Shown here: positions 13,771-51,557 of the stretch, piece after piece
Layout of the letters: each line of letters opens with the position of its first letter
Numbering within the stretch: position 1 is the stretch's first letter
DNA from: Bdellovibrio sp.
GTDB lineage: Bacteria > Bdellovibrionota > Bacteriovoracia > Bacteriovoracales > Bacteriovoracaceae
NCBI GenBank assembly: GCA_020720455.1
Contig: DYOQ01000009.1
Coordinates: 1-52,478, forward strand
Direction of reading: 5' to 3'
Length of the DNA: 52,478 nucleotides
Notes under the pieces: generated by a model
What the model was told of the DNA's origin: nothing
Database searches by the model: none
The model's input: the letters and a program-made list of their open reading frames with translations, nothing else
Made by a program: the position numbers and the translations under genes

Positions 13771-13793
13771 ATACTTATGAAAATAATAAGTAT
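13771..13793. promoter_or_regulatory. Second inverted repeat in the purF/agmatine deiminase intergenic region
   Basis: ATACTTAT, seven bases, then ATAAGTAT make a perfect 8-bp dyad about 75-95 bases upstream of purF and 120-140 upstream of the divergent gene. It could serve either gene. I could not assign a convincing -35/-10 pair in this region. Confidence 0.4.
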
Positions 13794-13913
13794 GTCTTAT
13801 ATTTGACACTTTCACCAGGAATACACGAACCACAACAACTCGGGTTACTTATTGGCCTTATTGGCCTACCGCTGATATATTTCTTGGACAAACAGTTCAA
13901 TTCTGGAGAGGCC

Positions 13914-14984
13914 ATGAAAAAGATTTTATTATCAGCTCTTACGTTAATCACTACTGTAAATGTGTACGCAAATGAACCCCTTCCAAACTGGATTGATCAT
14001 TCTCGGGAAAAAATAGTAGCACCACTAGAAATATCAAAGGGCGAATCTGCTCCACCATCAGGATTTCGATTACCGGCAGAGTATGAACCAGCTCAAGCTG
14101 TTTCAATCGGCAACATGGCGTTTACTCCGATGCTCCAAGAGATCGCTACTGCTGTAGTTGGTAGTGGCACTGAGATTTGGATTAGCGGCGAGGAATTAAA
14201 CTTAAATGTAAAAAACAAAAGTCTCGTAAAGCAACTTGGCTGCGCGCTAGATACAGTATGGATGAGAGATTATGGCCCAGTTGGAATAACAGAGAGTGGC
14301 GATCTTGCCATTGTTGATTCGATTTACAGGCACTACCAATACAGAGTTTCAGATGACCATGCTCCAGAGTGTATTGCAAACAATTTTAGCCTTATAAATT
14401 TTAATATGCCGATAATCCTCGATGGCGGAAACCTCATGGTAGATTCTGTTGGCAACCTTTTCATGACCAAAATTACTTATAAGTGGAACAATAAAATGTC
14501 TGCTGAAAAAATCAACGAGACTCTAAAAGAATATTTTGGAGTACACACAATTCACGCTATCGACTACGCCGGAATTCCCGGCAATCCACTTGATGGTACT
14601 GGACATATTGATATGTTCGTTAAACTTTTAAATGATGAAACAGTCTTAATTTCTCAAACAACATCCCCAGGGTTTAAAGAAGCTACTGAAAATGCTGTTA
14701 AATATTTTAAAAGTATCAAAACACCATCAGGCAATGATTATAAAATTCTTAGAACTCCAGGGTGGAGCAACGGTAGAACATGGTACACTTATACAAATTC
14801 ATTAATCGTTAACAATCTTGCGCTCGTTCCAAAGTTTTCAGGCCATGATGAAGATAATAAAACAGCAGAGAGAGCTTACGTGAATGGTAATCCTAATCTC
14901 AGCGTGAAGATGATTGACTCAGACCAATCAATTATCTATGGTGGCTCTATTCACTGTGTTACTCAATTAATACCTAAAAAATAG
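13914..14984 (+). CDS. Agmatine deiminase / peptidylarginine deiminase family protein, exported
   Basis: Members of this guanidine-modifying family hydrolyse agmatine, or peptidyl-arginine in PPAD-type enzymes. Family motifs are MRDYGPVGI, LDGGNLMVDSVG, GTGHIDMFVKL with its catalytic His, and the C-terminal GGSIHCVTQ with nucleophile Cys about residue 348 of 356. The frame is open from 13731, but the ATG at 13914 has GGAGAGG upstream and begins a clear signal peptide, MKKILLSALTLITTVNVYA, with likely cleavage after residue 19. An exported agmatine deiminase is unusual, as the metabolic enzyme is cytoplasmic; a periplasmic polyamine or protein-citrullination role is possible. It diverges from purF and converges with the next gene, ending two bases from it. 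Confidence 0.85.
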   Translation: MKKILLSALTLITTVNVYANEPLPNWIDHSREKIVAPLEISKGESAPPSGFRLPAEYEPAQAVSIGNMAFTPMLQEIATAVVGSGTEIWISGEELNLNVKNKSLVKQLGCALDTVWMRDYGPVGITESGDLAIVDSIYRHYQYRVSDDHAPECIANNFSLINFNMPIILDGGNLMVDSVGNLFMTKITYKWNNKMSAEKINETLKEYFGVHTIHAIDYAGIPGNPLDGTGHIDMFVKLLNDETVLISQTTSPGFKEATENAVKYFKSIKTPSGNDYKILRTPGWSNGRTWYTYTNSLIVNNLALVPKFSGHDEDNKTAERAYVNGNPNLSVKMIDSDQSIIYGGSIHCVTQLIPKK

Positions 14985-19996: not shown

Positions 19997-20013
19997 GTGT
20001 CACTTAATGACAC
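19997..20013. promoter_or_regulatory. Operator-like dyad 2 upstream of abiEi
   Basis: GTGTCA, CTTAA, TGACAC: the same 6-5-6 arrangement as the first dyad, centre-to-centre distance 65 bases, ending 17 bases before the chosen abiEi start. It would overlap the transcript start region. Confidence 0.65.
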
Positions 20014-20030
20014 CAGCAATAGGAAATAGA

Positions 20031-20672
20031 ATGGATATCATCAAAAAAATTTATGAGGAGCTAGGGACTTATATTTTACCACTCAATATAATTAACGGAG
20101 TGTTGGCCAATAAGAGTTCTGATGCTAAAAAATCTTTTTTAAAAAGAGCATGTCAAAAAGGTGATCTTGTTCGAGTTCAAAAAGGGCTATATCTCGTGGG
20201 AGATAAAAATAGAAATAATCATTACAATTCATTTGTAATTGCAAATTATATGGTCTGTCCATCTTATGTGAGCCTAGAATCTGCTCTTTCTTTTTATGGT
20301 TTAATTCCGGAGGCCGTCTACACAACAACATCTGTAACAACTAAAATTGGCTCAGAGATTAAAACCACTGTAGGACAGTACTCTTTTTCTTATTTGAAAA
20401 CAGATTATTTTAATTTTGGATTCTATCAAATTAAAGAAGGCGAACATAAATATTTAATAGCAACACCATTAAAGGCCCTGATGGATTACATTGTATTGAA
20501 GAAAAAAGAGTATAAATCAGTTGATAACTTAGAAGCAGACCTTCGTTTCGATTTTGATGAATTTCTAACTTATAAAAAATTCGTCAATATTGAGGCAATT
20601 AATGAAATGCTAGCACAGTATAAAAGTTATCGACTTCAGGTAATTCTTAAAGACATGAGGAAAAGATTATGA
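20031..20672 (+). CDS. abiEi: AbiEi-type antitoxin, type IV toxin-antitoxin system
   Basis: AbiEi antitoxins have an N-terminal winged-helix DNA-binding domain and a C-terminal domain needed for antitoxicity. Here the first 60 residues hold the wHTH (ILPLNIINGVLANKS, FLKRACQKGDLVRVQKGLYLV) and the middle shows the family segment CPSYVSLESALSFYGLIPE followed by YLIATPLKALMDYIVL. An ATG at 20007 falls inside the second dyad without a ribosome site; the ATG at 20031 has AGGAA upstream and gives 213 residues. It overlaps abiEii by four bases. Autoregulation through the two dyads is inferred. Confidence 0.88.
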   Translation: MDIIKKIYEELGTYILPLNIINGVLANKSSDAKKSFLKRACQKGDLVRVQKGLYLVGDKNRNNHYNSFVIANYMVCPSYVSLESALSFYGLIPEAVYTTTSVTTKIGSEIKTTVGQYSFSYLKTDYFNFGFYQIKEGEHKYLIATPLKALMDYIVLKKKEYKSVDNLEADLRFDFDEFLTYKKFVNIEAINEMLAQYKSYRLQVILKDMRKRL

Positions 20673-21505
20673 ATGAACTTATTACAGAAAGATTAAGTGA
20701 GTATCATGTTCAAACTGCTGAAGATGAGCTTAACGCAATAAAAGAAATCACTCAAGAAATAATTCTCTACGCATTATCTAAAACCAGTTTTTTTGATAAT
20801 GCTTATTTCTGTGGAGGTACCGCCCTTAGAATCGTCCATGGATTAAATCGATTTTCAGAGGATCTTGATTTTGCAACAAATATAGAGAGCATAGATTTTA
20901 ATTTTAATGACTATATGAATGAGGTTCTTTCAACTCTTAAGCAGTACGGCCTAAACATGATAGTCAAAAAGATCAGGGACGATAACGTTGTCAAAGCAAG
21001 AGAACTTAAGGAAGATTCTGACCAGTGGACACTATCCTTTCCATCAAATAAACAATTAAAGAAAATTGTCATTAAACTTGAAATTGATACAAAACCTCCA
21101 ACTGGAGCAATTATAACCAAAGCAAATCTTGATTTTCCATTATTACATCAAGTAAAAATTGGTTCAATAGAAACACTATTTTCAGGCAAACTTCATGCTC
21201 TACTTTGCAGAGGTTTTATAAAAGGAAGAGATTGGTATGACCTTCTTTGGTATATTAAAAAGAAATCAAATATTAATTATGACTTATTAAAAAATGCTCT
21301 TTCCCAAATAGGCCCATATCAAGGGCAGAATCTAAAAATAGTAGATCGTGATTTTGTTGTGGAAAAATTAAGCATTAAAATTAAGACACTTGCATGGAAA
21401 GAGATTAAAAGAGATGTTGAACGATTTTTAAAACCTGAAGAACTAGATACACTAAAACTTTGGGATGAAGATCTATTTTTAGAAAAAATACAAAAAATTA
21501 TTTGA
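20669..21505 (+). CDS. abiEii: AbiEii/AbiGii-family nucleotidyltransferase toxin
   Basis: AbiEii is a nucleotidyltransferase-fold toxin that stalls growth, often giving abortive phage resistance. The 278-residue protein has the catalytic pattern CGGTALRIVHGLNRFSEDLDF, with Gly49-Gly50-Thr51 and Asp65-x-Asp67, and downstream ETLFSGKLHALLCRGFIKGRDWYDLLWYI in parts characteristic of the family. All key residues are intact, so the toxin should be active. The ATG overlaps the antitoxin stop, giving coupled synthesis. The operon is enclosed by exact 14-bp direct repeats. Confidence 0.9.
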   Translation: MNELITERLSEYHVQTAEDELNAIKEITQEIILYALSKTSFFDNAYFCGGTALRIVHGLNRFSEDLDFATNIESIDFNFNDYMNEVLSTLKQYGLNMIVKKIRDDNVVKARELKEDSDQWTLSFPSNKQLKKIVIKLEIDTKPPTGAIITKANLDFPLLHQVKIGSIETLFSGKLHALLCRGFIKGRDWYDLLWYIKKKSNINYDLLKNALSQIGPYQGQNLKIVDRDFVVEKLSIKIKTLAWKEIKRDVERFLKPEELDTLKLWDEDLFLEKIQKII

Positions 21506-31919: not shown

Positions 31920-32017
31920 ACTCCACATCACCCTGTGTCGATGTACTATTAAACTTTTTCGTTATATACTGATTGATGCAAATATTATTTTTTTGAACTT
32001 AAGTGAAGGTGGAACTC

Positions 32018-33196
32018 ATGCAGTTTTCTGATATAAATACGCTCGATGATCTCAACAAGGTTTATCCTAAACACATCTTAGATAAATTTCCAATTGCTGG
32101 GCAAGGTGTATATGTAAATGAGACGAACGAGAACTGGAATAGTTGGATCTGGCAACAAAAGAAAAGGATCAACTCTCTTGAAGGCCTTGAAAAAGTGATC
32201 AATTTAAGTGAAGCGGAGAAAAACAATTTTGTTGAGTGTGACAAACTTTTCCACACTGGCATTACTCCATACTATGCAAACTTAATGGATAAAAACGATA
32301 CTCATTGCCCTATTAGGATGCAAGCAATTCCTCAAAAAGGTGAGCTGATCGTAATGAAGGAGGATTTGGAAGATCCATTAGGTGAAGAGGCCGACATGCC
32401 TGTTCCTGGCCTAACTCATAGATATCCAGACCGAGTGCTATTTTACACATCTCATAACTGCCCAGTATATTGCAGACACTGTACAAGAAAAAGAAAGGTT
32501 GCCGACCCTTCAACCTCTAGCGCCCAAGACCAATTAGATGCTGGAATAGAGTACATTAGGGCCCATAAAGAGGTTCGAGATGTTGTCGTCTCAGGAGGGG
32601 ACCCTCTCTCTCTTAGTAATAAAAAATTAGAGTATATTATAAAAAACTTAAGAGGCATGGAGCATATTGAGCTAATCAGACTTGGAACAAGAAACCCAGT
32701 TACACTTCCTCAACGAATAGATAATGAACTCCTTGAGATACTTCAAAGATACCAGCCAATATATTTAAACACCCACTTTAACCATCCAAGAGAGATGACG
32801 AGAGAGTCTCTTCTTGCTTGTACTAGGTTGTCTCTTTCAGGGGTAGTCCTTGGCAACCAGAGCGTGCTTTTAAAGGGCGTTAATGATAATCCAAAAACAA
32901 TGTTGGAGCTATCTCACAAACTTTTATTAATGAGAATTAGGCCATACTATATTTATCAATGTGATCTATCTCAAGGGATCTCTCACTTTAGAACATCAGT
33001 AGAAACAGGAATCGAGATCATTGAAAACATGAGGGGGTGGACTTCTGGTCTTGCCATTCCTCAATTTGTAATCGATGCTCCAGGCGGTGGAGGCAAAATT
33101 CCAATAAATCCTAATTACGTAGTAAAAAAAGATGGCAATAAAATCACGCTTAGAAACTACAAAAAACAGCAGTACGATTACTTTGAACCAGTCTAA
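32018..33196 (+). CDS. kamA: L-lysine 2,3-aminomutase
   Basis: Radical SAM, PLP-dependent enzyme that interconverts L-lysine and beta-lysine. The cluster motif CPVYCRHC gives Cys148, Cys152 and Cys155; VVSGGDPLSLSNKKLEYI and IRLGTRNPVTLPQRI form the barrel; YYIYQCDLSQGISHFRT holds the substrate-binding Asp; DAPGGGGKIPINPNYV contains the PLP Lys. Length is 392 residues. A GTG at 32003 is possible but the ATG at 32018 follows AAGGTGGA. beta-Lysine may serve as osmolyte or catabolic intermediate. The 3' end overlaps the next radical SAM gene by 65 bases. Confidence 0.92.
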   Translation: MQFSDINTLDDLNKVYPKHILDKFPIAGQGVYVNETNENWNSWIWQQKKRINSLEGLEKVINLSEAEKNNFVECDKLFHTGITPYYANLMDKNDTHCPIRMQAIPQKGELIVMKEDLEDPLGEEADMPVPGLTHRYPDRVLFYTSHNCPVYCRHCTRKRKVADPSTSSAQDQLDAGIEYIRAHKEVRDVVVSGGDPLSLSNKKLEYIIKNLRGMEHIELIRLGTRNPVTLPQRIDNELLEILQRYQPIYLNTHFNHPREMTRESLLACTRLSLSGVVLGNQSVLLKGVNDNPKTMLELSHKLLLMRIRPYYIYQCDLSQGISHFRTSVETGIEIIENMRGWTSGLAIPQFVIDAPGGGGKIPINPNYVVKKDGNKITLRNYKKQQYDYFEPV

Positions 33197-33947
33197 AGGA
33201 TTAATCGATCCAATTGGTGATCTAATCCACCACAAAGGGTATGGGGTTATTCATCGCTACAAAAATAAAATACTTTTTTTAGTAACGAAGAAATGTGCAA
33301 TAAAATGCGACCACTGTTTCAGACAAAACAATATCAGCGAATTTAATTTTGATCTTAATTTTGCTCTTAAGTATCTACACAATAATCCGCAAATATCTGA
33401 AGTTATTTTAAGCGGTGGTGATCCCTTTTGTCTTAATGACAAGCTATTAAATGAGCTCATCAAGCAAGTTGTAGCAATTGAATCTATAAACTATCTTCGC
33501 ATTCACACAAGAAATGTTGTGACTGATCCAAAAACTGTTTGTAACTCTACGCTGAAACAAATTAAAAAACATATAACGAAACGCCATATTAAACATGCAG
33601 CAATCGCAATTCACATTAATACAAAAGAAGAGATTAATAACGACGTTGCCAAAAAAATTGCTGAGATCAAAAAATTTGGCATATCAATTTTGTCACAAAC
33701 TGTACTACTAAAGAATATCAACAATTCTGCAACCGACCTCGCAGAACTTTTTACATCCCTTAATGATCTTGGCGTTAGGCCCTACTATCTTCACCACCCA
33801 GACAAAGTCTATGGCGGGATGAATTTTCAAGTATCAGAAGAAGATGGTATGAACATATATCAAGAATTAAAGCAACTACTACCAGGATGGTTAGTGCCAA
33901 ACTACGCTATTGATGGACAAAATGGAAAAAAAAGGGCCTTTGTTTAA
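33132..33947 (+). CDS. EpmB-like radical SAM lysine aminomutase paralogue, short N terminus
   Basis: A KamA-superfamily protein closer to EpmB (EF-P (R)-beta-lysylation). It has CAIKCDHCFRQ (Cys55, Cys59, Cys62), VILSGGDPFCLND, IRIHTRNVV and YYLHHPDKVYGGMNFQV, which mirrors the EpmB DKVQGAAHF segment except for Asn at the His. The C terminus IDGQNGKKRAFV stops soon after the Lys that aligns with the PLP Lys. At 271 residues it lacks about 50-60 N-terminal residues relative to EpmB. The ATG at 33132 lies inside kamA with no ribosome site; a later non-ATG start near 33186-33215, after TAAAGGA, is possible. epmA and efp are not in the window. Confidence 0.75.
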   Translation: MAIKSRLETTKNSSTITLNQSKGLIDPIGDLIHHKGYGVIHRYKNKILFLVTKKCAIKCDHCFRQNNISEFNFDLNFALKYLHNNPQISEVILSGGDPFCLNDKLLNELIKQVVAIESINYLRIHTRNVVTDPKTVCNSTLKQIKKHITKRHIKHAAIAIHINTKEEINNDVAKKIAEIKKFGISILSQTVLLKNINNSATDLAELFTSLNDLGVRPYYLHHPDKVYGGMNFQVSEEDGMNIYQELKQLLPGWLVPNYAIDGQNGKKRAFV

Positions 33948-42062: not shown

Positions 42063-42197
42063 GTGAAAGAAATTTATCTACTTTTAGTTATTATTACTAT
42101 TTTGAAGTGTGTCTCATTCTATAAAGAACCACAGATGGCCTACAGTTATAAGAGCGTCAAAGAGGATATCAATAAGCACTACTCAAGCTATCCCTGA
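42063..42197 (+). CDS. Small putative lipoprotein or membrane peptide, 44 residues
   Basis: A short frame beginning GTG behind GGTGGTG reads MKEIYLLLVIITILKCVSF and then a polar tail of 25 residues. The N-terminal hydrophobic run followed by Leu-Lys-Cys resembles a short lipoprotein signal with Cys16. It ends inside the 3' end of the convergent PlsC gene, overlapping by 29 bases. No homologue is known to me, and the small size makes the call tentative. Confidence 0.35.
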   Translation: MKEIYLLLVIITILKCVSFYKEPQMAYSYKSVKEDINKHYSSYP

Positions 42198-42831
42198 TTT
42201 TTTCAATCTCTGACTTGATACAAGACATATTTTCATCAACTGAAATATTTTTATCTACATACCTCTCACCGCCAATTGTTACTGAAAAATTATGAGGCAG
42301 CACAAGAGGATCACCCTTAGGAAGCACTTTTGCTGACGATGAAACATATGTGGGCAAATATGGAATGTGAGATCGTTCTAATAAAACTCTGACGATTCCG
42401 CTCTTAAACTCTCTAATGTCACCGCTATTTGATCTTGTCCCTTCCGGAAAAATTACAAGACTCTTACCTTCATCCAACGCATTAATCATCAATTGTATTC
42501 CTATATTTTTATTCCCTTCTGCACCTAAATGATGCCTCTCAATTAATAACACATTTATAAATAGCTTAGACAAAAAAGCTTTCACCGTTGTTGATCCAAA
42601 ATAATCTTTTGCTGCAACAGGCATTACATTAGTCAAAAATTTTGCTGGTAAATTGGCCATAATAGCTCCAGTGTCAGCATGGGAGCTATGGTTTCCAGCT
42701 ATAATTACGAACTGTTTTAGCGCTTTAATTCTTTGTTTAGAATTAAACTCACACCCGATTATAAGTTTTAAAAAAGGGTACAAGACTATTTTGTAGCAAA
42801 TAAACAATATTAACCAATGGAATAATTTCAT
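42169..42831 (-). CDS. 1-acyl-sn-glycerol-3-phosphate acyltransferase-like (PlsC family)
   Basis: A 220-residue membrane-associated acyltransferase. Motif I is AGNHSSHADTGAI (His48, Asp53), motif III is VIFPEGTRSNSGDIREF near residue 128, and there is an N-terminal hydrophobic anchor. PlsC enzymes make phosphatidic acid. It overlaps the CdsA-like gene by four bases, so the pair would feed phosphatidate to CDP-diacylglycerol within the ynb-like lipid cluster. It may be an accessory copy rather than the housekeeping one. Confidence 0.88.
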   Translation of the reverse strand: MKLFHWLILFICYKIVLYPFLKLIIGCEFNSKQRIKALKQFVIIAGNHSSHADTGAIMANLPAKFLTNVMPVAAKDYFGSTTVKAFLSKLFINVLLIERHHLGAEGNKNIGIQLMINALDEGKSLVIFPEGTRSNSGDIREFKSGIVRVLLERSHIPYLPTYVSSSAKVLPKGDPLVLPHNFSVTIGGERYVDKNISVDENMSCIKSEIEKIRDSLSSAY

Positions 42832-43772
42832 TTATATATCCAAAAATAAATCAAATAAAAAAAAGCTACTGTTGAAAACGTCAATGAATCAATTCGATCT
42901 AATACTCCTCCATGGCCAGGAATAAAATTACTCATATCCTTTATCGATAAATCTCGTTTCACTGTTGAGATATTCAAATCACCAAAAATTCCAGTAATAG
43001 AGATAATTATTGCCGCAATAACAGTCTGTTCCACTGTAAGCGGCATTAATGGTGATAAAAAATATCCAAGTGTCATTGAACCAACAACTCCACCGATCGC
43101 ACCTACAATAGTTTTTCCAGGACTGATATTTTTCGATAACTTTTTATTTCCAAATATTTTTCCAAAAACGTATTGAAAAATATCATTGCTTTGAGAAACA
43201 AATATAAGGAAAAATATGAATTCTTGATACGAGCGAATAGTCCCTGAGATGTTGGGAAGAGAGATAAAATATGCCAAGTGTGAAATAGTGAAAGTTGTTA
43301 GCAATAACGACCAGTGCAATTGACCAAAAACACGAATACTATTTTCTGGCACATCATTTAGAATCGTTCTAACTGAAATAAGCAAAAGACCTCCGACGGG
43401 AATAAGGACCAAAAAAGCAACTAACTCTGCCTTATATGCTAAATAATACTGCACTGGAATGAACAAATATGACCAAAAAATCACACGTCGAGATGACAAT
43501 GAAAAATTTAGATTTGAAACAAGTTCTCGATGAGCGATAAAAGATATAAACATAAACATAAATATTGAGACTACATGATGTATGCCCATACCTATAAAAT
43601 AAAATACAAAAATTACCCACCAAGAATTCGTTCGCTCAACTAAATTAAGAGACGTCGCACTAGGGGCAACCTTGTGATATATTTGAAACGCTATTGTTGC
43701 GATCACTAAAACAAATAAAAAAATAGCTAGATACCATAAATGATCGTTTGAAAATAATACATATTCGCTCAT
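42828..43772 (-). CDS. CdsA-like phosphatidate cytidylyltransferase (YnbB-like)
   Basis: A 314-residue polytopic protein that should make CDP-diacylglycerol from phosphatidate and CTP. The family signature is at the C terminus: SPGKTIVGAIGGVVGS, GDLNISTVKRDLSIKDMSN and IPGHGGVLDRIDSLTF, with the metal-binding Asp residues in place. About eight helices are predicted. The length and neighbours (CDP-alcohol phosphotransferase, hydrolase-methyltransferase fusion) match E. coli YnbB better than housekeeping CdsA. It diverges from the YnbC-like gene. Confidence 0.85.
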   Translation of the reverse strand: MSEYVLFSNDHLWYLAIFLFVLVIATIAFQIYHKVAPSATSLNLVERTNSWWVIFVFYFIGMGIHHVVSIFMFMFISFIAHRELVSNLNFSLSSRRVIFWSYLFIPVQYYLAYKAELVAFLVLIPVGGLLLISVRTILNDVPENSIRVFGQLHWSLLLTTFTISHLAYFISLPNISGTIRSYQEFIFFLIFVSQSNDIFQYVFGKIFGNKKLSKNISPGKTIVGAIGGVVGSMTLGYFLSPLMPLTVEQTVIAAIIISITGIFGDLNISTVKRDLSIKDMSNFIPGHGGVLDRIDSLTFSTVAFFYLIYFWIYK

Positions 43773-43860
43773 ACATATCCCAATTAAAGATTCATGGTTT
43801 TCGGTAAATAATAACTGTTAAATTATAGTGAACAGTATGTAGGAATTTTTTTCTTGTTCC

Positions 43861-43882
43861 TAATGAAATCGAATTTTCATTA
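43861..43882. promoter_or_regulatory. Inverted repeat between the ynbB-like and ynbC-like genes
   Basis: TAATGAAA, six bases TCGAAT, then TTTCATTA form a perfect 8-bp dyad between the two divergent genes. A weaker dyad, ACTGTT (43814) and AACAGT (43831), lies nearer the CdsA-like gene. Either could be a regulator site controlling both arms of the lipid cluster. Confidence 0.4.
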
Positions 43883-43953
43883 CACTTTTTACTTCCTGTA
43901 CCGATATTCAAGTTGAATTATTTGTTGATTTCAAGAAATATAAGGAGATATTT

Positions 43954-45729
43954 ATGAATCACAGGACTGAGACAAAACAAACTTTTGATGGTTATCAGGA
44001 AATTAAACTTACATATAGAAGCTGGCAACCAAAAGATAATGGCGGTAGTAAAAAAGCGTTAATAATTCTCCATAGAGGTCACGAGCACAGTGGTAGAGTA
44101 AGGGATATAGTGGATAATGTTTGCCCTGACGAATTTTGGGCATTTAGCTTCGACAGTAGAGGTCACGGTGAATCACCAGGCCCACGTGGATATGCTCCGA
44201 GCTTCACTCATCTAGTAAAAGATCTAGATCTATTCGTAAAATTTGTTTCAGAAACATACAAAATCAAAACTCAGGATATGTTAGTCGTTGCAAACAGTGT
44301 TGGTGCCGTAATTGCTAGCACATGGGCGCACGACTATGCTCCAGACATCAAGGGGATGATTCTTGCAGCGCCTGCATTTAATATTAAACTTTACGTTCCT
44401 CTTGCATTGCCGGCCCTAAAAATATTCAACTATTTTAAGAAAGATGCCTTTATTTCAAGTTATGTAAAACCAAAGTTTCTGACCCACGACAAAGAACAAC
44501 AACGGTTATACAACGAAGACAAGCTAATCACACCACAAATAGCCGTTAATATTCTACTCGATCTATACCAAGTATCTGAAAGAGTTGTTAGTGATGCCAG
44601 CGCAATTCATATCCCTACCTTAATTCTTAGTGCGGAAAAAGATTACGTCGTGAATAATTTCGAACAAGAGTTATTTTACAAAAGACTGTCGTCAACGAAA
44701 AAACGTTTCGTCACACTCCCTAATTTTTACCATGGAGTTCTTTATGAAGAAAACAGGCAAAAAGCATTTAAGGAATGCTCTGAATTTATTAACGACTGTT
44801 ACAATTATCAACAAAAAAGTGTTTCTTTAAAAGACGCTCACAGAGATGGATTTACCCTACAAGAGTATGAAGAAATTTTACACACTCACATGCCCATTTA
44901 TAAAGAGTTCTTTTATTGGGTTCAAAGAGCTTCTTTATTTACTATCGGCTGGATGAGCAAAGGAATAAGAATTGGTTTAAAACATGGATTTGACTCTGGG
45001 CTATCTCTTGATCACGTCTACCAAAATAGGCCAGAGGGTTTCACTCCTATTGGGAAGCTAATTGACTACTTTTATATTAATAGTGTCGGTTGGAAAGGGA
45101 TTAGAAAAAGAAAAACAAACCTTCAAAATAGTTTAGATATAATCATTTCCAAATTAAAAAATGAAGGAAAGCCAATAAGGATTCTAGACATTGCCAGCGG
45201 GCCAGCAAGATATCTAATTGAGACAGCAAAAAAAGAGGAGCGAACAGACTTAAAAGTAATAGTACGTGATTACGATATTAACAACATAAAAAAAGCAAAA
45301 AAACTTGCAGCGGAGCTAAGTTGCACAAACATTGAGTTTGCCATTGCAGATGCATTTGATCATACAACATATGAAAATTTACATTTCTCACCAAACATTA
45401 TCGTAATATCTGGTCTATTCGAACTGTTCCCAGATAATGACATGATAAGAAACTCATTAAAGGGATTACATAAAATCATGGCAGATAGGGCATACGTCGT
45501 TTACACAGGACAGCCGTGGCACCCTCAACTAGAGATGATTGCCCAAACTCTTAATAATCGAGAAGGAAAAAAATGGATAATGCGAAGAAGATCTCAAAAA
45601 GAGCTTGATGATATATTCAAAGATTTTGGAATATGTAAAACAGATATGGATATCGACAACTGGGGAATTTTTACTGTTTCGACAGCGACTTACTCCAAAT
45701 CTCAAATTGAATTCAAAGAGGCATGTTAA
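43954..45729 (+). CDS. Alpha/beta-hydrolase / SAM methyltransferase fusion (YnbC-like)
   Basis: A 591-residue two-domain protein matching the E. coli YnbC layout (about 585). Residues 1-285 are an alpha/beta hydrolase: ILHRGHEHSGRV, FDSRGHGESPGPRG, nucleophile elbow VVANSVGAVIAS with Ser in Asn-Ser-Val-Gly context, and the acid and His in SAEKDYVVN and FYHGVLYEE. A helical linker follows (290-380), then a class I methyltransferase with IRILDIASGPARYLIE near residue 410 and DYDINNIKKA. Related hydrolases act on lysophospholipids, but no activity is proven. AAGGAG precedes the ATG. First of three plus-strand genes. Confidence 0.88.
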   Translation: MNHRTETKQTFDGYQEIKLTYRSWQPKDNGGSKKALIILHRGHEHSGRVRDIVDNVCPDEFWAFSFDSRGHGESPGPRGYAPSFTHLVKDLDLFVKFVSETYKIKTQDMLVVANSVGAVIASTWAHDYAPDIKGMILAAPAFNIKLYVPLALPALKIFNYFKKDAFISSYVKPKFLTHDKEQQRLYNEDKLITPQIAVNILLDLYQVSERVVSDASAIHIPTLILSAEKDYVVNNFEQELFYKRLSSTKKRFVTLPNFYHGVLYEENRQKAFKECSEFINDCYNYQQKSVSLKDAHRDGFTLQEYEEILHTHMPIYKEFFYWVQRASLFTIGWMSKGIRIGLKHGFDSGLSLDHVYQNRPEGFTPIGKLIDYFYINSVGWKGIRKRKTNLQNSLDIIISKLKNEGKPIRILDIASGPARYLIETAKKEERTDLKVIVRDYDINNIKKAKKLAAELSCTNIEFAIADAFDHTTYENLHFSPNIIVISGLFELFPDNDMIRNSLKGLHKIMADRAYVVYTGQPWHPQLEMIAQTLNNREGKKWIMRRRSQKELDDIFKDFGICKTDMDIDNWGIFTVSTATYSKSQIEFKEAC

Positions 45730-45748
45730 TCAAGCATGGAGAAAAATA

Positions 45749-46732
45749 GTGAACAGTAATGACATGATAAAATCACTAGAGACCTACTTTAATCTAATGT
45801 CGATGAACGGCACTGCATACGTATTTAACATCGCTAATAAAATGAAGTTTTTTAAACCATTTGTTATCAAAGAACAACTAACGTCAACTGAGATAGCAAA
45901 AGCACTTTGTCTTAAAGAAAACCCAGTAAAACTAGTGCTTGAAACACTAATATCAATCAAAGTCCTTGAAAAAAATGGAGACCTGTACTCCCTCTCTTCC
46001 GTAACTAAATATCTAACAGGGAATTATGAAAATTTAAGCTCAGATTATTGGGAACATTTGCCAAAACTTCTTACAGAGGGCAACCCATACAAAAAGATGG
46101 ATCAAGTTTCAGATAGCGAAAATGAGTATAAGGTGCAAGTGAAATCACTAGAATGGATGATGTCCCCAAGTGCCGTAATCACAGCAAAGATGTTTCCAAT
46201 TTCGAAAAAAAACAATTTGTCGATTCTTGACGTTGGAGCAGGCTCTGGCGTTTGGAGTTTTGCGTTTTTAAAGGAAAATGAAACTGCCACAGCAGCGCTT
46301 GCTGATTGGCCAGGAGTCTTAGACGTTGCTAAAGATAGTGCAAAAAAACAAAATTTAAACAACAGAGTTAAATACATCGAAGGTAATTATCATGAAACTA
46401 ATTTCAACTCTGATTATGATTTAGCAATCATTGCTAATGTCACCCACATCGAATCAACAGAAGGGAACCAATCTCTTTTTAAAAAAATCAAAGCGGCACT
46501 ACGGCCAAACGGAATACTCTTAATTGTTGATGTGTTTGGAAACAACAAAAAGGGGGACGTTAACAAATGTTTGTATCAACTTGGACTAGCACTTAGAACA
46601 ACTAAAGGTGAAGTCTATCCACCAGCCACGCTACAAGAATGGTTAACAACATTAGGATACAGGGAATTCAATTTTCATTCACTTGATGTCGTTCCATATA
46701 CAATGGGTATTTTAAGCGCCACGACACCATGA
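45749..46732 (+). CDS. Methyltransferase with winged-helix N-terminal domain (O-methyltransferase type)
   Basis: About 327 residues. The first 90 form a helical, winged-helix-like dimerisation domain typical of small-molecule O-methyltransferases (TSTEIAKALCLKENPVKLVLE), and the SAM domain shows LSILDVGAGSGVWSFAF, AALADWPGVLDVAK and LRPNGILLIVDVFG. The frame is open further upstream into the YnbC-like gene; the GTG at 45749 with GGAG seven bases before it is preferred over ATG 45764. It is 19 bases after the YnbC-like gene and overlaps the next gene by four, so it belongs to the lipid cluster; headgroup methylation is an inference. Confidence 0.82.
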   Translation: MNSNDMIKSLETYFNLMSMNGTAYVFNIANKMKFFKPFVIKEQLTSTEIAKALCLKENPVKLVLETLISIKVLEKNGDLYSLSSVTKYLTGNYENLSSDYWEHLPKLLTEGNPYKKMDQVSDSENEYKVQVKSLEWMMSPSAVITAKMFPISKKNNLSILDVGAGSGVWSFAFLKENETATAALADWPGVLDVAKDSAKKQNLNNRVKYIEGNYHETNFNSDYDLAIIANVTHIESTEGNQSLFKKIKAALRPNGILLIVDVFGNNKKGDVNKCLYQLGLALRTTKGEVYPPATLQEWLTTLGYREFNFHSLDVVPYTMGILSATTP

Positions 46733-47088
46733 ACACTACATCACAACTACTCCCTATTTGTTTATCACTGACTGCTGCGTTTCTTGGAGCATGGGCACAA
46801 TATTTTTACAAAATTGCCGCACTAAAGCTTTATGAAATCCCAATCTATAAGAACCTGCACTTAATTGCTGGTCTTTTAAGTTTTACCATCGTGCTCATTC
46901 TCTTTATTTATGCATTTAGAATCGGCGGGAAAATGTTCGTCATATATCCCATCTACGCTACAACCTATATCTGGGGTGGATTCATTGCATATTATCTTAT
47001 CAAGGAACCAATTGGTGTTTGGCAAATAGTAGGCACTTCGTTAATTATTCTAGGCGTAATTTCAATCTCACTTGGGACTAACAACTAA
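46729..47088 (+). CDS. Small four-helix EamA/SMR-type transporter
   Basis: A 119-residue protein with four hydrophobic helices and the pattern AFRIGGKMFVIYPIYATTYIWGGFIAYYLIKEPIGVWQ (in parts) followed by VGTSLIILGVI, typical of small EamA/SMR proteins including ArnE/ArnF lipid flippases. The catalytic Glu of SMR drug pumps in helix 1 is absent. Given its place after two enzymes of a lipid cluster, a lipid-linked substrate is plausible. ATGA overlap upstream; convergent with the CDP-alcohol phosphotransferase by four bases. Confidence 0.72.
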   Translation: MNTTSQLLPICLSLTAAFLGAWAQYFYKIAALKLYEIPIYKNLHLIAGLLSFTIVLILFIYAFRIGGKMFVIYPIYATTYIWGGFIAYYLIKEPIGVWQIVGTSLIILGVISISLGTNN

Positions 47089-47678
47089 GCAACAGCTCTT
47101 CTAATTCGATTAACAACCGTTGTAACCAATAAAAAATTGATACAAATAAAAATATAAAAATAAAAATTATAATTAATATTAGAAAATGCTAACAGTAATG
47201 AGATAACACCAAATACAAAAGCTCTATCACTTTTGCCCATCGGCCCAAAATAACCTCTTTTGCTACCAACTAAAACAGATGCCACACCAACAAACTCTAT
47301 CAAGACTGATAAAAATAACATTAGAACCAAAAGTTGCTTGCTTAACTGCTGACAAGATACAAAGGCCATAATCATTGCAGCATCCGATACTACATCACTA
47401 ACCTCATTTAAAAGCCCCCCTAGTTTTGACCTTAGATTAAACTCATTAGCGATCATTCCATCAATTGCATTTAATGCCATTCTTACAAACAAAACGATAG
47501 GCACAAGAGCTAAAAAAATTTTAGAGTTTGGATTAAGATACACTAGTAAAAAATAAGTCACAATAAAAACCATAGTTGTCAAAGTAATTAGATTAGGTGT
47601 CACGTTAAACGAATGTAACCACCTAGCAATTGGTCGTAGTAAATTTTGAAAAGCTGGTTTCAAATCATATATCGTCAA
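47085..47678 (-). CDS. CDP-alcohol phosphotransferase (YnbA-like)
   Basis: A 197-residue membrane enzyme that would exchange CMP of CDP-diacylglycerol for an alcohol. The motif region is NAIDGMIANEFNLRSKLGG then LLNEVSDVVSD. Against the family consensus D-x2-D-G-x2-A-R-x8-G-x3-D-x3-D, the first Asp is Asn70, Arg is Asn78 and the third Asp is Asn91, while Asp73, Gly74, Gly87 and Asp95 remain. This fits the YnbA branch as far as I recall. The start is TTG with AAGGA upstream and overlaps the MMPL gene stop by four bases. The acceptor alcohol is unknown. Confidence 0.82.
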   Translation of the reverse strand: MTIYDLKPAFQNLLRPIARWLHSFNVTPNLITLTTMVFIVTYFLLVYLNPNSKIFLALVPIVLFVRMALNAIDGMIANEFNLRSKLGGLLNEVSDVVSDAAMIMAFVSCQQLSKQLLVLMLFLSVLIEFVGVASVLVGSKRGYFGPMGKSDRAFVFGVISLLLAFSNINYNFYFYIFICINFLLVTTVVNRIRRAVA

Positions 47679-49891
47679 GACATTATCCTTTTTCCATATT
47701 TAAAAAAAATCGCTGACAATAATACAATATCACCTAAAAGGGCGGCTATAAATGACAAAAACAGAAAAATTCCAATCTGAACAAACAACCTTAAATCGGC
47801 CAAAAAGAAAACAGGGAAGCACAAAAGCAAAATAATGGTAGTTCCAGTAAGTGCTTTCAGTGTATCTTCCATAGATTTTTTAATAGAGACAACAAGTGGA
47901 TCATTTTTCAAATTTTCACGCAGGGTGATCATAAAATGAATTGTATCATCAACGGCTATCCCTATTGTAATGGAAACTAAAATTATTAGATTACTCTCCA
48001 TAGTAACATTAAAAATCCCCATTAACCCACTAACCGTCAGCAGAGGAAATACGTTTGGGATCATTGCTACAACCGTCCACTTAAAAGAACGAAACAAGAT
48101 AAAGAATATAATAAAAATAATAATAAACGAGACCGCAAATGAATTAACAAAACTCCTAATCACGTTTTGGTTAATATAATTTCTAATCGCCGCAAAACCA
48201 CTAACATTGGCCACAAGATCTTTATTATGCTTTGCTAATTCTCCAATCTTTTGAATCGTCTTTTCAAGTTCCACTGAGTTCAACCCATTCAAAAACACTA
48301 CCGACCTAAGCTCATTAGCATTTTTTTTATACATTGAATTAAGAGCTCCGTAATCGTATAACATTTCTAGAAGAGATCGCACCAAATCCTTTTTTTCAAT
48401 ATTACTATCTTCACCTACCTCGTCCAATAAATTATCATTAAGCTGAGTAAACGATTTTATATACGAAACAGTATCGATCTTTAAAATTTCATCTTCAAAC
48501 AATTTAACTTTTTTTAAGAAATCAAAATTATCAACGCGAACAAATTTATCTTTTGAACTTATTACAACATCTACCGACCCAACGAAATCAAGACCTTCAC
48601 TAAAATTGTCAACAGATTTTGACAACGGATGATAACTTAGAAATTTACGATAAAGATTATCGTCTATTTTTAATGTTAAACTTTGCTGAATAAATATCAG
48701 CGTTAACACACCAAACACTGCAATAACAGCAAAAGGATATTTTGAAACAATATTCCAAAGCCACGCACTAGAACGCTTACTAACAACATTATCGACATGA
48801 TTGAGCTGTACATCAAATGATTTCAAGCAAAAAGGTAGATATAAAAAAGTTAAAGCGTAAAGAAGGGCCGCGCCAATTGAACAATAAAGTCCAAAGTATC
48901 GGATGGGAACATTTTCATTAAATATCAAAGAAAAAAAACCGATCAGTGTTGTCAGGGTTGTTAAAAAGCATGGAACTTTTATACTATCTATTGTCAGCTT
49001 CAAATTAGAATCTGTCTGTTGAAATTTTGTGAAAAAATGAATTAAATCAGCCGTAGAAATAATTAGAACAAAGAATAGAGCAAACGAACTATATGGCCCA
49101 ATCCCGTCTTCAATTAACACTATGGTTATAATCGTTAAGCAGTATCCCGAAATTATAACAACATAACTCCAAAACACAGCTTTCCAGCTTTTAAAGAGAA
49201 AATAGAAAAAGAGACCTATCACCAAAAGAATTAGCGGTGTAATCACTGTCTGATTTTTAATCATCTCTTTCGTAAACCAATAATTAGCTATTTCTGTTCC
49301 AAGATAATATGTCGAAATTTCACTACGAGAACCTACAACTCCTTCAACTAATGACATAATCTTTTTTGCAACGACAACTCTTTGTGCCCTCTCTAACTTT
49401 GCTGATAATGAAACTGTTACTAAAACAGCTCGATGATCCTCTGAAATCAAAGTCTTTTTCCAAAACTGAGTCTCCAGCTTATTTAAGGCGTACTTACTCC
49501 ATCCACTCCTCTCTAAAAAAGGAATTAGTTGAAAGCCACCTCCTTCAACCTTAAAATATTTTGCATTTTCTAAAGTTGTACTAGAGCTTATCCCATAAAA
49601 AAACTTCAGTTCACGACCAATTTGATATAGCAAATCATAAAGCTCTTCTCCTTGAAATGAGCTTTCTTTTTTTAACAAAATAAATATTTTATTTTCATCA
49701 TTATATGAAAGATTAAATTTTTCATACGCTTGTCGCACGTAATTATCTTCTGGCAAAAGTTTCTGTATCTCAAATGGTTTAATGTTTCTAAGCAAGGAAG
49801 CTGAAACGAGTAATGACCCAAGGAAAATTAGCACACTTAACAATCTGTAAATTAACTTACTTTTTGACATACAACAACGAGCGTAAGCCAA
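47675..49891 (-). CDS. MMPL/RND-superfamily membrane exporter
   Basis: A 738-residue protein with the RND two-fold design: an N-terminal helix (residues 15-30), a large extracytoplasmic loop to about 200, a block of helices with FFVLIISTADLIHFFTKFQ, a second loop and a second block with VSITIGIAVDDTIHFMITL. The repeated Ile-x-x-Asp-x-x-His segments are the family signature. Such proteins export lipids or hydrophobic molecules. It is transcribed with the YnbA-like gene (four-base overlap). The TTG at 49891 follows AGGAAGAA; an ATG at 49870 is an alternative. Confidence 0.85.
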   Translation of the reverse strand: MAYARCCMSKSKLIYRLLSVLIFLGSLLVSASLLRNIKPFEIQKLLPEDNYVRQAYEKFNLSYNDENKIFILLKKESSFQGEELYDLLYQIGRELKFFYGISSSTTLENAKYFKVEGGGFQLIPFLERSGWSKYALNKLETQFWKKTLISEDHRAVLVTVSLSAKLERAQRVVVAKKIMSLVEGVVGSRSEISTYYLGTEIANYWFTKEMIKNQTVITPLILLVIGLFFYFLFKSWKAVFWSYVVIISGYCLTIITIVLIEDGIGPYSSFALFFVLIISTADLIHFFTKFQQTDSNLKLTIDSIKVPCFLTTLTTLIGFFSLIFNENVPIRYFGLYCSIGAALLYALTFLYLPFCLKSFDVQLNHVDNVVSKRSSAWLWNIVSKYPFAVIAVFGVLTLIFIQQSLTLKIDDNLYRKFLSYHPLSKSVDNFSEGLDFVGSVDVVISSKDKFVRVDNFDFLKKVKLFEDEILKIDTVSYIKSFTQLNDNLLDEVGEDSNIEKKDLVRSLLEMLYDYGALNSMYKKNANELRSVVFLNGLNSVELEKTIQKIGELAKHNKDLVANVSGFAAIRNYINQNVIRSFVNSFAVSFIIIFIIFFILFRSFKWTVVAMIPNVFPLLTVSGLMGIFNVTMESNLIILVSITIGIAVDDTIHFMITLRENLKNDPLVVSIKKSMEDTLKALTGTTIILLLCFPVFFLADLRLFVQIGIFLFLSFIAALLGDIVLLSAIFFKYGKRIMS

Positions 49892-49958: not shown

Positions 49959-51557
49959 ATGAAAAACAACAGATCTATTATTTTTGGAATTACTGGATTC
50001 ATTCTAGGTGCTTTAATATTATCAATCTGGAAAACTTACAACTATGTTAGTATCCCGAAAGAAAATACGAGGCGGTCAATCTCTTCGCAAAGCACCGGTC
50101 AACAACTAGTCATAGATCAACTCACCGATAGAATTTTAAGCATAAAGACTAAAGCTGATATTGACAAAACCGCTCAAGAAATAGTTTCAACAGCAGAGAA
50201 ATATCCCACATTTGTTGGCGTACAGATGTTTGGTGAATTTGCAAGAGTAGTTCCAGTACTAAAAGGATTACTATGGAGGCTTCGAGGGGTCGTAGAAGAA
50301 ACAGATATTCTACATACATTCATTCTCTCCAATATGAGATTTATTTATTTTTCAAGATATATGTATGGCCCACATTTAAAAGCTGTTTTTCACTATTTAG
50401 CAGACCCACCAAGTGATATGCTACAGTTTGAATCGATTAGCGAATTTCAAGATACAGTAATATCAAAAATCAGACCGATACTCACAAGGTCAATAGAAAA
50501 ATCTATTGCGTCACTTACTTTACCAGCAGAAAACCACCATTTTACTCTTGATAGAAGAATTTTTACCGGACATGAAGAGAGTAAACGATATTTTGACCCA
50601 GTCGAAATTCCAAGAGAGTTCATCAAACCTTATATGAGTTACATTATCTCTGGACTAGCAAGAGCGGTTGGAACAATAGATTACATCGGGGCTTACAACT
50701 TAGACGATCTAACAACAGTAATGAAAGATAATCTTACAAAAACCGCATTCAATAAAATACAAGGAAGATTAAGAGTTCCATATATTAGAAAAGATGCGAA
50801 GGAAAATATTAAATCACTTCCCCAAGTTTTATCTCGAAAAGAGGTATTTGATATTATCAGAACCAAATCTCGTTTCTTAACTGCTCGTCTAGATGATCGC
50901 ATGATGACACAAAATCTTAGTAGTGCGTACAAAATGTTTCAATTAGCTTCTGAGCATGACTTAAAAGGGTACGTTTGCACTATCACATACGCATCAATGA
51001 TGATGAAGAGAGAGGGCATTGAACAAAATTACAATTGTGACTGGGACTTTATGGAGAATGAAAGTTTTATGGAGGAAGAGTATTTTGTCGTTGGTGGAAA
51101 GAATTTTCTTATTGATCCAAACCAACTCCTAATAAACCACCGACAAAAATTTCATGAACTTAGAGACAGATATAGAATCTACCACCCAGAAGATAAAAAT
51201 GGTTTAGTCTCAATCACAAGCGACGTTACTGGTGAGACGATTCGTATAAATGTTAAGGAATTTTTCATTTACAAAAATTCATTAAAAGACCTAAAGAAAT
51301 ATCTACCTACTAGTTATAGCAACTCTTTAAATTTTGAAGATATCAATATCTCTACTGGCGTAGGTGCGATCAATAACAGAGGGCAATGGGTGTGGAACTA
51401 TGACTATGGTCGGCCTCTACAGTGGGAAAATGGTTATACAACGTTTGGCGGTCTATTTCCCGACGCAAATAACGAAAACATGTACGATATAATGTATACA
51501 GTGAGATTAACACAATCACTGAGGCCATTCTCAAATATGTTTACAACCGCGCCATAA
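49959..51557 (+). CDS. Unrecognised membrane-anchored protein, 532 residues
   Basis: I do not recognise this protein. It has one N-terminal transmembrane helix (IIFGITGFILGALILSIW, residues 8-25), then a large, mostly helical and well-ordered soluble region with few low-complexity parts. The C-terminal third is richer in strands and aromatic residues (GQWVWNYDYGRPLQWENGYT). A CTITYASMMMKREGI and VVGGKNFLIDPNQLL pairing faintly recalls papain-like or transglutaminase folds, but no triad is convincing. AAGGAGG precedes the ATG. It diverges from the MMPL gene with 67 bases between. Confidence 0.6.
   Translation: MKNNRSIIFGITGFILGALILSIWKTYNYVSIPKENTRRSISSQSTGQQLVIDQLTDRILSIKTKADIDKTAQEIVSTAEKYPTFVGVQMFGEFARVVPVLKGLLWRLRGVVEETDILHTFILSNMRFIYFSRYMYGPHLKAVFHYLADPPSDMLQFESISEFQDTVISKIRPILTRSIEKSIASLTLPAENHHFTLDRRIFTGHEESKRYFDPVEIPREFIKPYMSYIISGLARAVGTIDYIGAYNLDDLTTVMKDNLTKTAFNKIQGRLRVPYIRKDAKENIKSLPQVLSRKEVFDIIRTKSRFLTARLDDRMMTQNLSSAYKMFQLASEHDLKGYVCTITYASMMMKREGIEQNYNCDWDFMENESFMEEEYFVVGGKNFLIDPNQLLINHRQKFHELRDRYRIYHPEDKNGLVSITSDVTGETIRINVKEFFIYKNSLKDLKKYLPTSYSNSLNFEDINISTGVGAINNRGQWVWNYDYGRPLQWENGYTTFGGLFPDANNENMYDIMYTVRLTQSLRPFSNMFTTAP

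Follow-up and report, generated by a model that had tools for sequence, protein, structure and literature searches.

A ynb-type gene cluster in a Bdellovibrio sp. combines a variant YnbA metal site with a methyltransferase in place of YnbD and may serve synthesis of a minor phospholipid

A cluster of eight genes related to the ynb genes of E. coli is located on contig DYOQ01000009.1 of a Bdellovibrio sp. from the family Bacteriovoracaceae (GCA_020720455.1, a draft assembly of 2.7 Mb in 92 contigs), within the stretch of 52,478 nucleotides that was analyzed here (positions 1 to 52,478, referred to as the window). It encodes a PlsC-type acyltransferase, YnbB, YnbC, a second methyltransferase (MT2), a small SMR/EamA protein, YnbA, an MMPL transporter and a membrane-anchored protein that we call p532 (Table 1). 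On balance, we think that the cluster provides a ynb-type route to a minor phospholipid that derives from CDP-diacylglycerol and is not one of the housekeeping lipids. This lipid would be methylated, flipped and, within this subclade, exported. An earlier reading of the DNA alone (the original prediction) had described seven open reading frames with these domains, and their coordinates, integrity and Pfam domains were all confirmed.

Comparison with the E. coli proteins (42% identity over 581 amino acids for YnbC, 42% for YnbA, 32% for YnbB) indicates that the three window proteins are true orthologues, so that the earlier assignment of the hydrolase-methyltransferase, CDP-alcohol and CdsA-like proteins holds. 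The core of a ynb-type cluster, a YnbC fusion linked to a CdsA paralogue of the YnbB type and to YnbA, is present in the window. Among the matches listed, the nearest named relatives by YnbC were Bacteriovorax/Bdellovibrionales genomes. The E. coli K-12 locus ynbABCD (b1408-b1411) shares the three orthologues and an identical, asparagine-containing YnbA signature, but it is a single operon, whereas the window genes lie in opposed runs. Moreover, the E. coli locus has YnbD (PAP2-like plus dual-specificity phosphatase), which the window lacks, and it is without PlsC, MT2, SMR, MMPL and p532, all of which are present in the window. Disruption of ynbC alters polyphosphate-linked protein localization, a polyphosphate/intron-localization phenotype in which polar effects are possible (PMC2435150).

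In order to see which genes accompany ynbC elsewhere, named genomes were scanned, which returned at least 80 YnbC loci from many phyla; the family itself is much larger. After removal of duplicates and addition of the loci of the phylum itself and of E. coli, the census comprised 87 loci, in which genes within 7 kb of ynbC were counted; a contig end truncates some of the loci, so that genes can go unseen there. YnbA and YnbB were each found in 75 loci, YnbD in 62, PlsC in 61, MT2 in 14, SMR in 11, and MMPL and p532 in 3 each. In view of its frequency, PlsC was not gained by the window cluster, as had been supposed; it is a standard partner of YnbC, and E. coli is the exceptional case.

Co-inheritance was followed in 291 genomes of the phylum, with cut-offs of E<1e-70 for YnbC, E<1e-35 for type-I YnbA and E<1e-100 for MT2. 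A strong YnbC was present in 11 genomes, all of which also had type-I YnbA, compared with 2 of the 280 others (Fisher p = 3e-18). One of these two (G209) has its ynb genes at a contig end, and in the other (G019) YnbA has lost the DG of its motif. This orphan copy (locus L189, 9236-9844; DG to GG, no ynbC found in the genome) is probably decaying. MT2 was found in 9 of the 291 genomes, all of them YnbC-positive (Fisher p = 1.5e-15), and the two YnbC genomes from which it is absent are members of other families, with a divergent YnbC. The p values overstate the strength of these associations, since they ignore shared descent. Conserved co-occurrence had been named beforehand as a test on which the original prediction could fail; with YnbA in every YnbC genome and MT2 only in company of YnbC, the prediction survived it.

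The gene order p532-MMPL-YnbA-(SMR)-MT2-YnbC-YnbB-PlsC of the window recurs in genomes G034 and G017, the former without SMR, and G209 shows p532-MMPL-YnbA before its contig ends. Bacteriovorax-type genomes keep YnbB-YnbC-MT2-SMR-YnbA and have genes for a hexapeptide-transferase-like protein and a cytochrome P450 in the position of MMPL; the former is a membrane protein in the pairs at L022 13675-15736, L044 13673-15727 and L155 12743-14789. In genome G029 the set is broken, with PlsC-YnbC-MT2-SMR on one contig, p532-YnbB on a second and YnbA on a third. We also note a patatin-like phospholipase gene, in several cases with a short-chain dehydrogenase gene, beside ynb clusters at L023 5808-7681 and in the Duganella/Undibacterium loci L043, L057, L061, L069, L082 and L087.

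YnbD is typical of YnbC loci without being universal, and it had no match in the window or in any Bacteriovoracaceae ynb cluster. Not one of the 87 loci combines MT2 with YnbD (p = 8e-10). On a quick tree of YnbC, the MT2 state changes at least five times, and MT2-bearing groups are found in Bacteriovoracaceae, Syntrophobacteraceae, Woeseiaceae, Acidobacteriota and Planctomycetota. Judged by gene content, MT2 has replaced the standard phosphatase YnbD in the window cluster. Such a repeated exchange suggests that phosphatase and methyltransferase act at one point of the pathway or on one group; for example, one enzyme might remove and the other cap a phosphate or hydroxyl. The original prediction spoke of a gain of a methyltransferase and an exporter and overlooked the absence of YnbD; the real differences are MT2 in the place of YnbD and a joined pair of MMPL and p532. 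MT2 has the C-terminal catalytic domain of the Methyltransf_2 type, with the S-adenosylmethionine (SAM) site DxGxG(x)G present as DVGAGSG. Its relatives in the PDB include DnrK, DSYB and MfnG, among others, and its best matches on plasmids are ordinary methyltransferases with 22-26% identity.

The SMR/EamA protein had been taken for another gain of the cluster. However, of its 31 matches in the phylum, 26 have a YnbA-type gene at a distance of at most 3 kb, in most cases with no YnbC. Each of the phylum's 17 type-II YnbA-like loci has YnbB as a neighbor, and 6 of them an SMR gene as well, so that PlsC, YnbB, YnbA and SMR make up a unit that recurs also where YnbC is missing. By this distribution, the association of SMR with YnbA and YnbB is old, and SMR predates the window cluster. 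Its EamA match, which would correspond to the four-helix half of the EamA fold, is under the curated cut-off, and a PDB sequence search found no solved structure that matched. The protein is likely to be a lipid flippase.

The MMPL protein exceeds the PF03176 cut-off clearly (58.8 bits against 20.5). It resembles the lipid exporters of the HpnN/HAE3 RND type in matching TIGR00921 (HAE3, 2.4e-30) and HpnN (3e-12), at scores far under the cut-offs of those families, and it differs from them in its partner p532, which belongs to a family without recognized relatives. An AlphaFold2 (AF2) model of p532 (pLDDT 82.8) has an N-terminal membrane helix (residues 4-27), a helical part and a strand-rich C-terminal part. 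The model matched no PDB fold at E<=0.001, and the sequence had no match in Pfam, NCBIfam, PHROG or the PDB. A reading of p532 as a transglutaminase-like peptidase, based on a cysteine and a DP motif, was rejected, since the cysteine region is an insertion absent from most relatives and neither fold nor sequence searches gave a match. Relatives of p532 occur in 48 of the 291 genomes, and in the loci inspected an MMPL gene is nearly always adjacent. Most of these pairs are without ynb genes, and they often have Rieske oxygenase and short-chain dehydrogenase genes nearby; at L120-L127, L129-L132 and L134-L135 these two and a gene for a 270-300-amino-acid protein are frequent flanking genes. We infer that the pairs are a recurrent, uncharacterized export module in Bdellovibrionota, in which p532, being probably extracytoplasmic, may act as a partner protein to the transporter on that side of the membrane.

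It is possible, if doubtful, that in the window the pair is a passenger with a different export substrate, which in a few species happens to adjoin the ynb genes. The many ynb-free pairs in Bdellovibrionota would agree with this, as would the Bacteriovoracaceae ynb clusters, most of which are without the pair and several of which have the hexapeptide-transferase-like protein and the P450 instead. However, the MMPL and ynbA genes of the window overlap, the ynb-linked copies of both proteins form a distinct high-scoring group (above 1250 against at most 728 for MMPL; 637-986 against at most 284 for p532), and the p532 orthologue of G029 still adjoins ynbB in the broken cluster. p532 belongs with MMPL and counts as an eighth gene of the cluster, the two being a Bdellovibrionota pair that apparently joined it.

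The most unexpected feature of the cluster is the active site of YnbA. Characterized CDP-alcohol phosphotransferases share the signature D1xxD2G1xxAR...G2xxxD3xxxD4, in which two metals are held by the four aspartates, D4 presumably serving as the base (PMC6506517, PMC4634129); in the phosphatidylinositol-phosphate (PIP) synthase of M. tuberculosis, the D4 exchange D93N nearly abolished activity (PMC4634129). The canonical signature is not present in the window YnbA, which reads N70-A-I-D73-G ... G87-G-L-L-N91-E92-V-S-D95, with N70 in the position of D1 and N91 in that of D3. The alignment with M. tuberculosis PgsA1 has no gaps across the motif. Asparagine occupies D3 in 74 of 74 relatives and D1 in 72 of 73, including E. 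coli YnbA, so that the variant site is common to essentially the whole family. Three other CDP-alcohol phosphotransferases encoded in the genome keep aspartate at the alignable positions. The fold is as expected for this superfamily: the AF2 model (pLDDT 95.2) has the six-helix fold, the top 28 Foldseek matches are all CDP-alcohol phosphotransferase superfamily enzymes, and PIP synthases match with template modelling scores of 0.72-0.80. The original prediction of a CDP-alcohol phosphotransferase was right about the fold but had passed over the variant site.

YnbA could be a CDP-lipid-binding pseudoenzyme or a regulatory subunit of YnbB, with YnbB itself making a special lipid, as has been proposed for the synthesis of GlcNAc-PP-DAG, the first MPIase lipid, by CdsA/YnbB in E. 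coli. The asparagines in essentially all members and the close pairing of YnbA-type genes with YnbB would both fit, as would the increase in MPIase upon overproduction of YnbB in E. coli (PMC6362211). We nevertheless regard this explanation as unlikely. D2, D4 and the acceptor-phosphate residues K149, R152 and R191 are invariant in the relatives, and the cytidine site P(D/N)xx(T/S), here P28-N29-x-x-T32, is nearly so, a degree of conservation that a dead subunit would not need. MPIase synthesis does resemble the ynb system in that a YnbB-type CdsA paralogue takes part. However, the MPIase work did not deal with YnbA or YnbC, and knockout of ynbB left the MPIase level unaffected (PMC6362211). 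YnbB cannot replace CdsA (PMC6362211), which, together with its effect on MPIase, is consistent with a role in a side pathway. As for the metal site of YnbA, our guess is that the conserved E92 next to N91 might stand in as a ligand. A tandem YnbA-YnbB-YnbA' was observed in one genus (f6 g82), in three of its genomes (L190 9088-11412; also L172 and L173), the second copy of which, YnbA', is still more degenerate (ATLDG...NRITPELCD).

In PlsC, YnbB and YnbC, the catalytic residues are conserved throughout, which indicates that these enzymes are under selection. PlsC has intact NHSSHAD and FPEGTRS motifs. YnbB contains the CDP-diacylglycerol synthase signature S-x2-K-R-x4-K-D ... H-G-G-x2-D-R-x-D, with the residues kept in 71-73 of 73 loci, and it is a separate copy from the housekeeping CdsA encoded on contig C40, whose gene neighbors resemble uppS, frr, pyrH and a gene for an rseP-type protease (names by sequence inspection only). 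In YnbC, the triad S115/D230/H260 and the SAM site are intact, conservation having been checked across 85 loci, and the closest solved structures to the hydrolase domain are monoglyceride lipases. With an acyltransferase and a monoacylglycerol-lipase-like hydrolase in one cluster, and patatin-like and other lipid-active genes beside the ynb genes of some lineages, one might think of a salvage or turnover set, in which PlsC and the YnbC hydrolase would serve to recycle lysolipids and the methyltransferases to render by-products harmless, without any new lipid being made. We consider this improbable, since it does not explain why a CDP-diacylglycerol synthase is paired with a protein of the CDP-alcohol phosphotransferase fold, nor why phosphatase and methyltransferase are exchanged reciprocally.

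The nearest characterized relatives of YnbA are archaetidylinositol- and phosphatidylinositol-phosphate synthases, which raises the question of an inositol phospholipid. PIP synthases share with YnbA the fold and the phosphate-binding residues (PMC6506517, PMC9246714): R152 and R191 of YnbA align with the acceptor-phosphate arginines (R155 and R195 in M. tuberculosis; PMC4634129, PMC6506517), the match of R191 resting on the final aligned columns and on spacing, as the printed alignment ends at this residue. In the pathways of mycobacterial PgsA1 and of Bacteroides BT_1523/BT_1525, CDP-diacylglycerol is joined to an alcohol phosphate and a phosphatase follows, which resembles the pairing of YnbA with YnbD (PMC9246714). 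The signatures differ, however (DxxDG..AR..GxxxDxxxD in PIP synthases, NxxDG..A..GxxxNxxxD in YnbA), no inositol phosphate synthase gene is near the window cluster, and a methyltransferase takes the place of the phosphatase. The residue after D4, positive in users of inositol phosphate (R94, PMC6506517), is V96 in YnbA, and type-I YnbA proteins have no positive residue there. A separate cluster in the genome (G000, contig C25, L137 6537-13107) encodes a Gfo/Idh/MocA oxidoreductase, a myo-inositol-1-phosphate synthase (Ino1, 5e-95), a CDP-alcohol phosphotransferase with canonical motif and a nucleotidyltransferase. In view of this separate Ino1 cluster and the missing marker residue, the inositol reading is very improbable and was set aside. 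A chance gathering of lipid genes, which differences in gene order and strand among lineages might suggest, has next to no likelihood, because other genera of the family show the arrangement too and because co-inheritance and linkage statistics contradict it.

For the ynb-type route to a minor phospholipid, we propose the following sequence of steps. PlsC would supply or remodel phosphatidic acid, which YnbB would convert into CDP-diacylglycerol beside YnbA. By means of its rewired metal site, YnbA would then transfer the phosphatidyl group to an alcohol, which is probably phosphorylated. The head group would subsequently be matured, in most bacteria by the phosphatase YnbD and the methyltransferase domain of YnbC; in the window cluster, the O-methyltransferase-like MT2 would take the place of YnbD. 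Acyl-ester trimming of the lipid may fall to the hydrolase domain of YnbC, and its flipping from one side of the inner membrane to the other to the SMR/EamA protein; onward transport towards the outer membrane would, in this subclade, be the task of MMPL and p532. That the same genome has a CdsA apart from YnbB, further CDP-alcohol phosphotransferases and the inositol cluster supports a role outside the housekeeping set.

Several observations weigh against this proposal. YnbA lacks two of the four metal-binding aspartates of characterized enzymes, so that its activity is not assured. One locus with MT2 (L012) has no SMR gene. The MMPL/p532 pair is present in only 3 of 87 loci, and in G029 p532 is split off with ynbB from ynbC, MT2, SMR and PlsC; export is therefore not part of the core. 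A literature search that left most subscription journals outside its range found no product of any ynb cluster, in agreement with the earlier statement that none is established; on ynbABC it gave only the MPIase study (PMC6362211) and the ynbC phenotype (PMC2435150). Of the original idea that a non-standard phospholipid is synthesized, methylated, remodelled and exported, the general part is thus supported by orthology and co-occurrence, while export would apply to some relatives only.

The earlier description of seven contiguous, coupled genes stands with regard to coupling, seen as 4-nucleotide overlaps of PlsC with YnbB, MT2 with SMR, and YnbA with MMPL. It was amended at two starts, most likely GTG 45749 with GGAG upstream for MT2 and ATG 49870 instead of TTG 49891 for MMPL, and by the eighth gene, p532, which had been overlooked. 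YnbC and MT2 are separated by 19 nucleotides, and SMR and YnbA are convergent with a tail-to-tail overlap of 4 nucleotides. p532 is divergent from MMPL, with 67 bases between it and the TTG.

Table 1. Genes of the ynb-type cluster, with positions in the window.
Product	Position	Strand	Remarks
PlsC-type acyltransferase	42169..42831	-	220 amino acids (aa); Pfam PF01553 2.4e-16
YnbB, CdsA-like CDP-diacylglycerol synthase paralogue	42828..43772	-	314 aa; CTP_transf_1 PF01148 3.4e-53
YnbC, fusion of monoacylglycerol-lipase-like alpha/beta-hydrolase and Methyltransf_20 SAM methyltransferase	43954..45729	+	591 aa; Hydrolase_4 4e-62, Methyltransf_20 9e-104
MT2, Methyltransf_2-type (O-methyltransferase fold) SAM methyltransferase	45749..46732	+	~327 aa, GTG start; PF00891 1.4e-13
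SMR/EamA half-transporter	46729..47088	+	119 aa, ~4 transmembrane helices; EamA 3.4e-4
YnbA, CDP-alcohol phosphotransferase fold with variant signature	47085..47678	-	CDP-OH_P_transf PF01066 6e-11
MMPL/HAE3-type RND transporter	47675..49891	-	738 aa counted from TTG; MMPL PF03176 5.9e-16
p532, membrane-anchored protein	49959..51557	+	no Pfam/NCBIfam/PHROG match

Promoter and terminator scans gave matches at chance level only, and Rfam had none within the window. Composition does not indicate a foreign origin of the cluster (GC content 0.32-0.36 against 0.32-0.39). Elsewhere in the window, we noticed a two-gene unit in which an AbiEii-type nucleotidyltransferase toxin (2e-34) follows a 221-amino-acid protein that may be its AbiEi-type antitoxin (20007-21505), a lysine-2,3-aminomutase whose gene overlaps that of another, shorter radical-SAM protein of similar appearance (32003-33947), and a peptidyl-arginine-deiminase-type enzyme (PAD_porph, 6e-37; 13791-14984).

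The variant YnbA site and the exchange of YnbD and MT2 are the reasons why the ynb family as a whole, rather than these particular genes, merits attention. Tentatively, YnbA may represent a large, unrecognized branch of the CDP-alcohol phosphotransferases whose members use an Asn/Asp metal site and a novel acceptor. The ynb clusters of hundreds of bacteria, E. coli included, might then make an undescribed class of phospholipid, finished by dephosphorylation (YnbD) or methylation (MT2) and exported by MMPL/p532 in some relatives of predatory bacteria. The exchange predicts two end-products that differ in phosphate or methyl content. The ynb genes have a wide distribution that includes E. coli. 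Further handles from the comparison are a conserved YnbA site that can be mutated and the partner resembling a flippase. A real pathway would add a new class of membrane lipid and, in Bdellovibrionota, a new two-gene module for lipid export (MMPL and p532).

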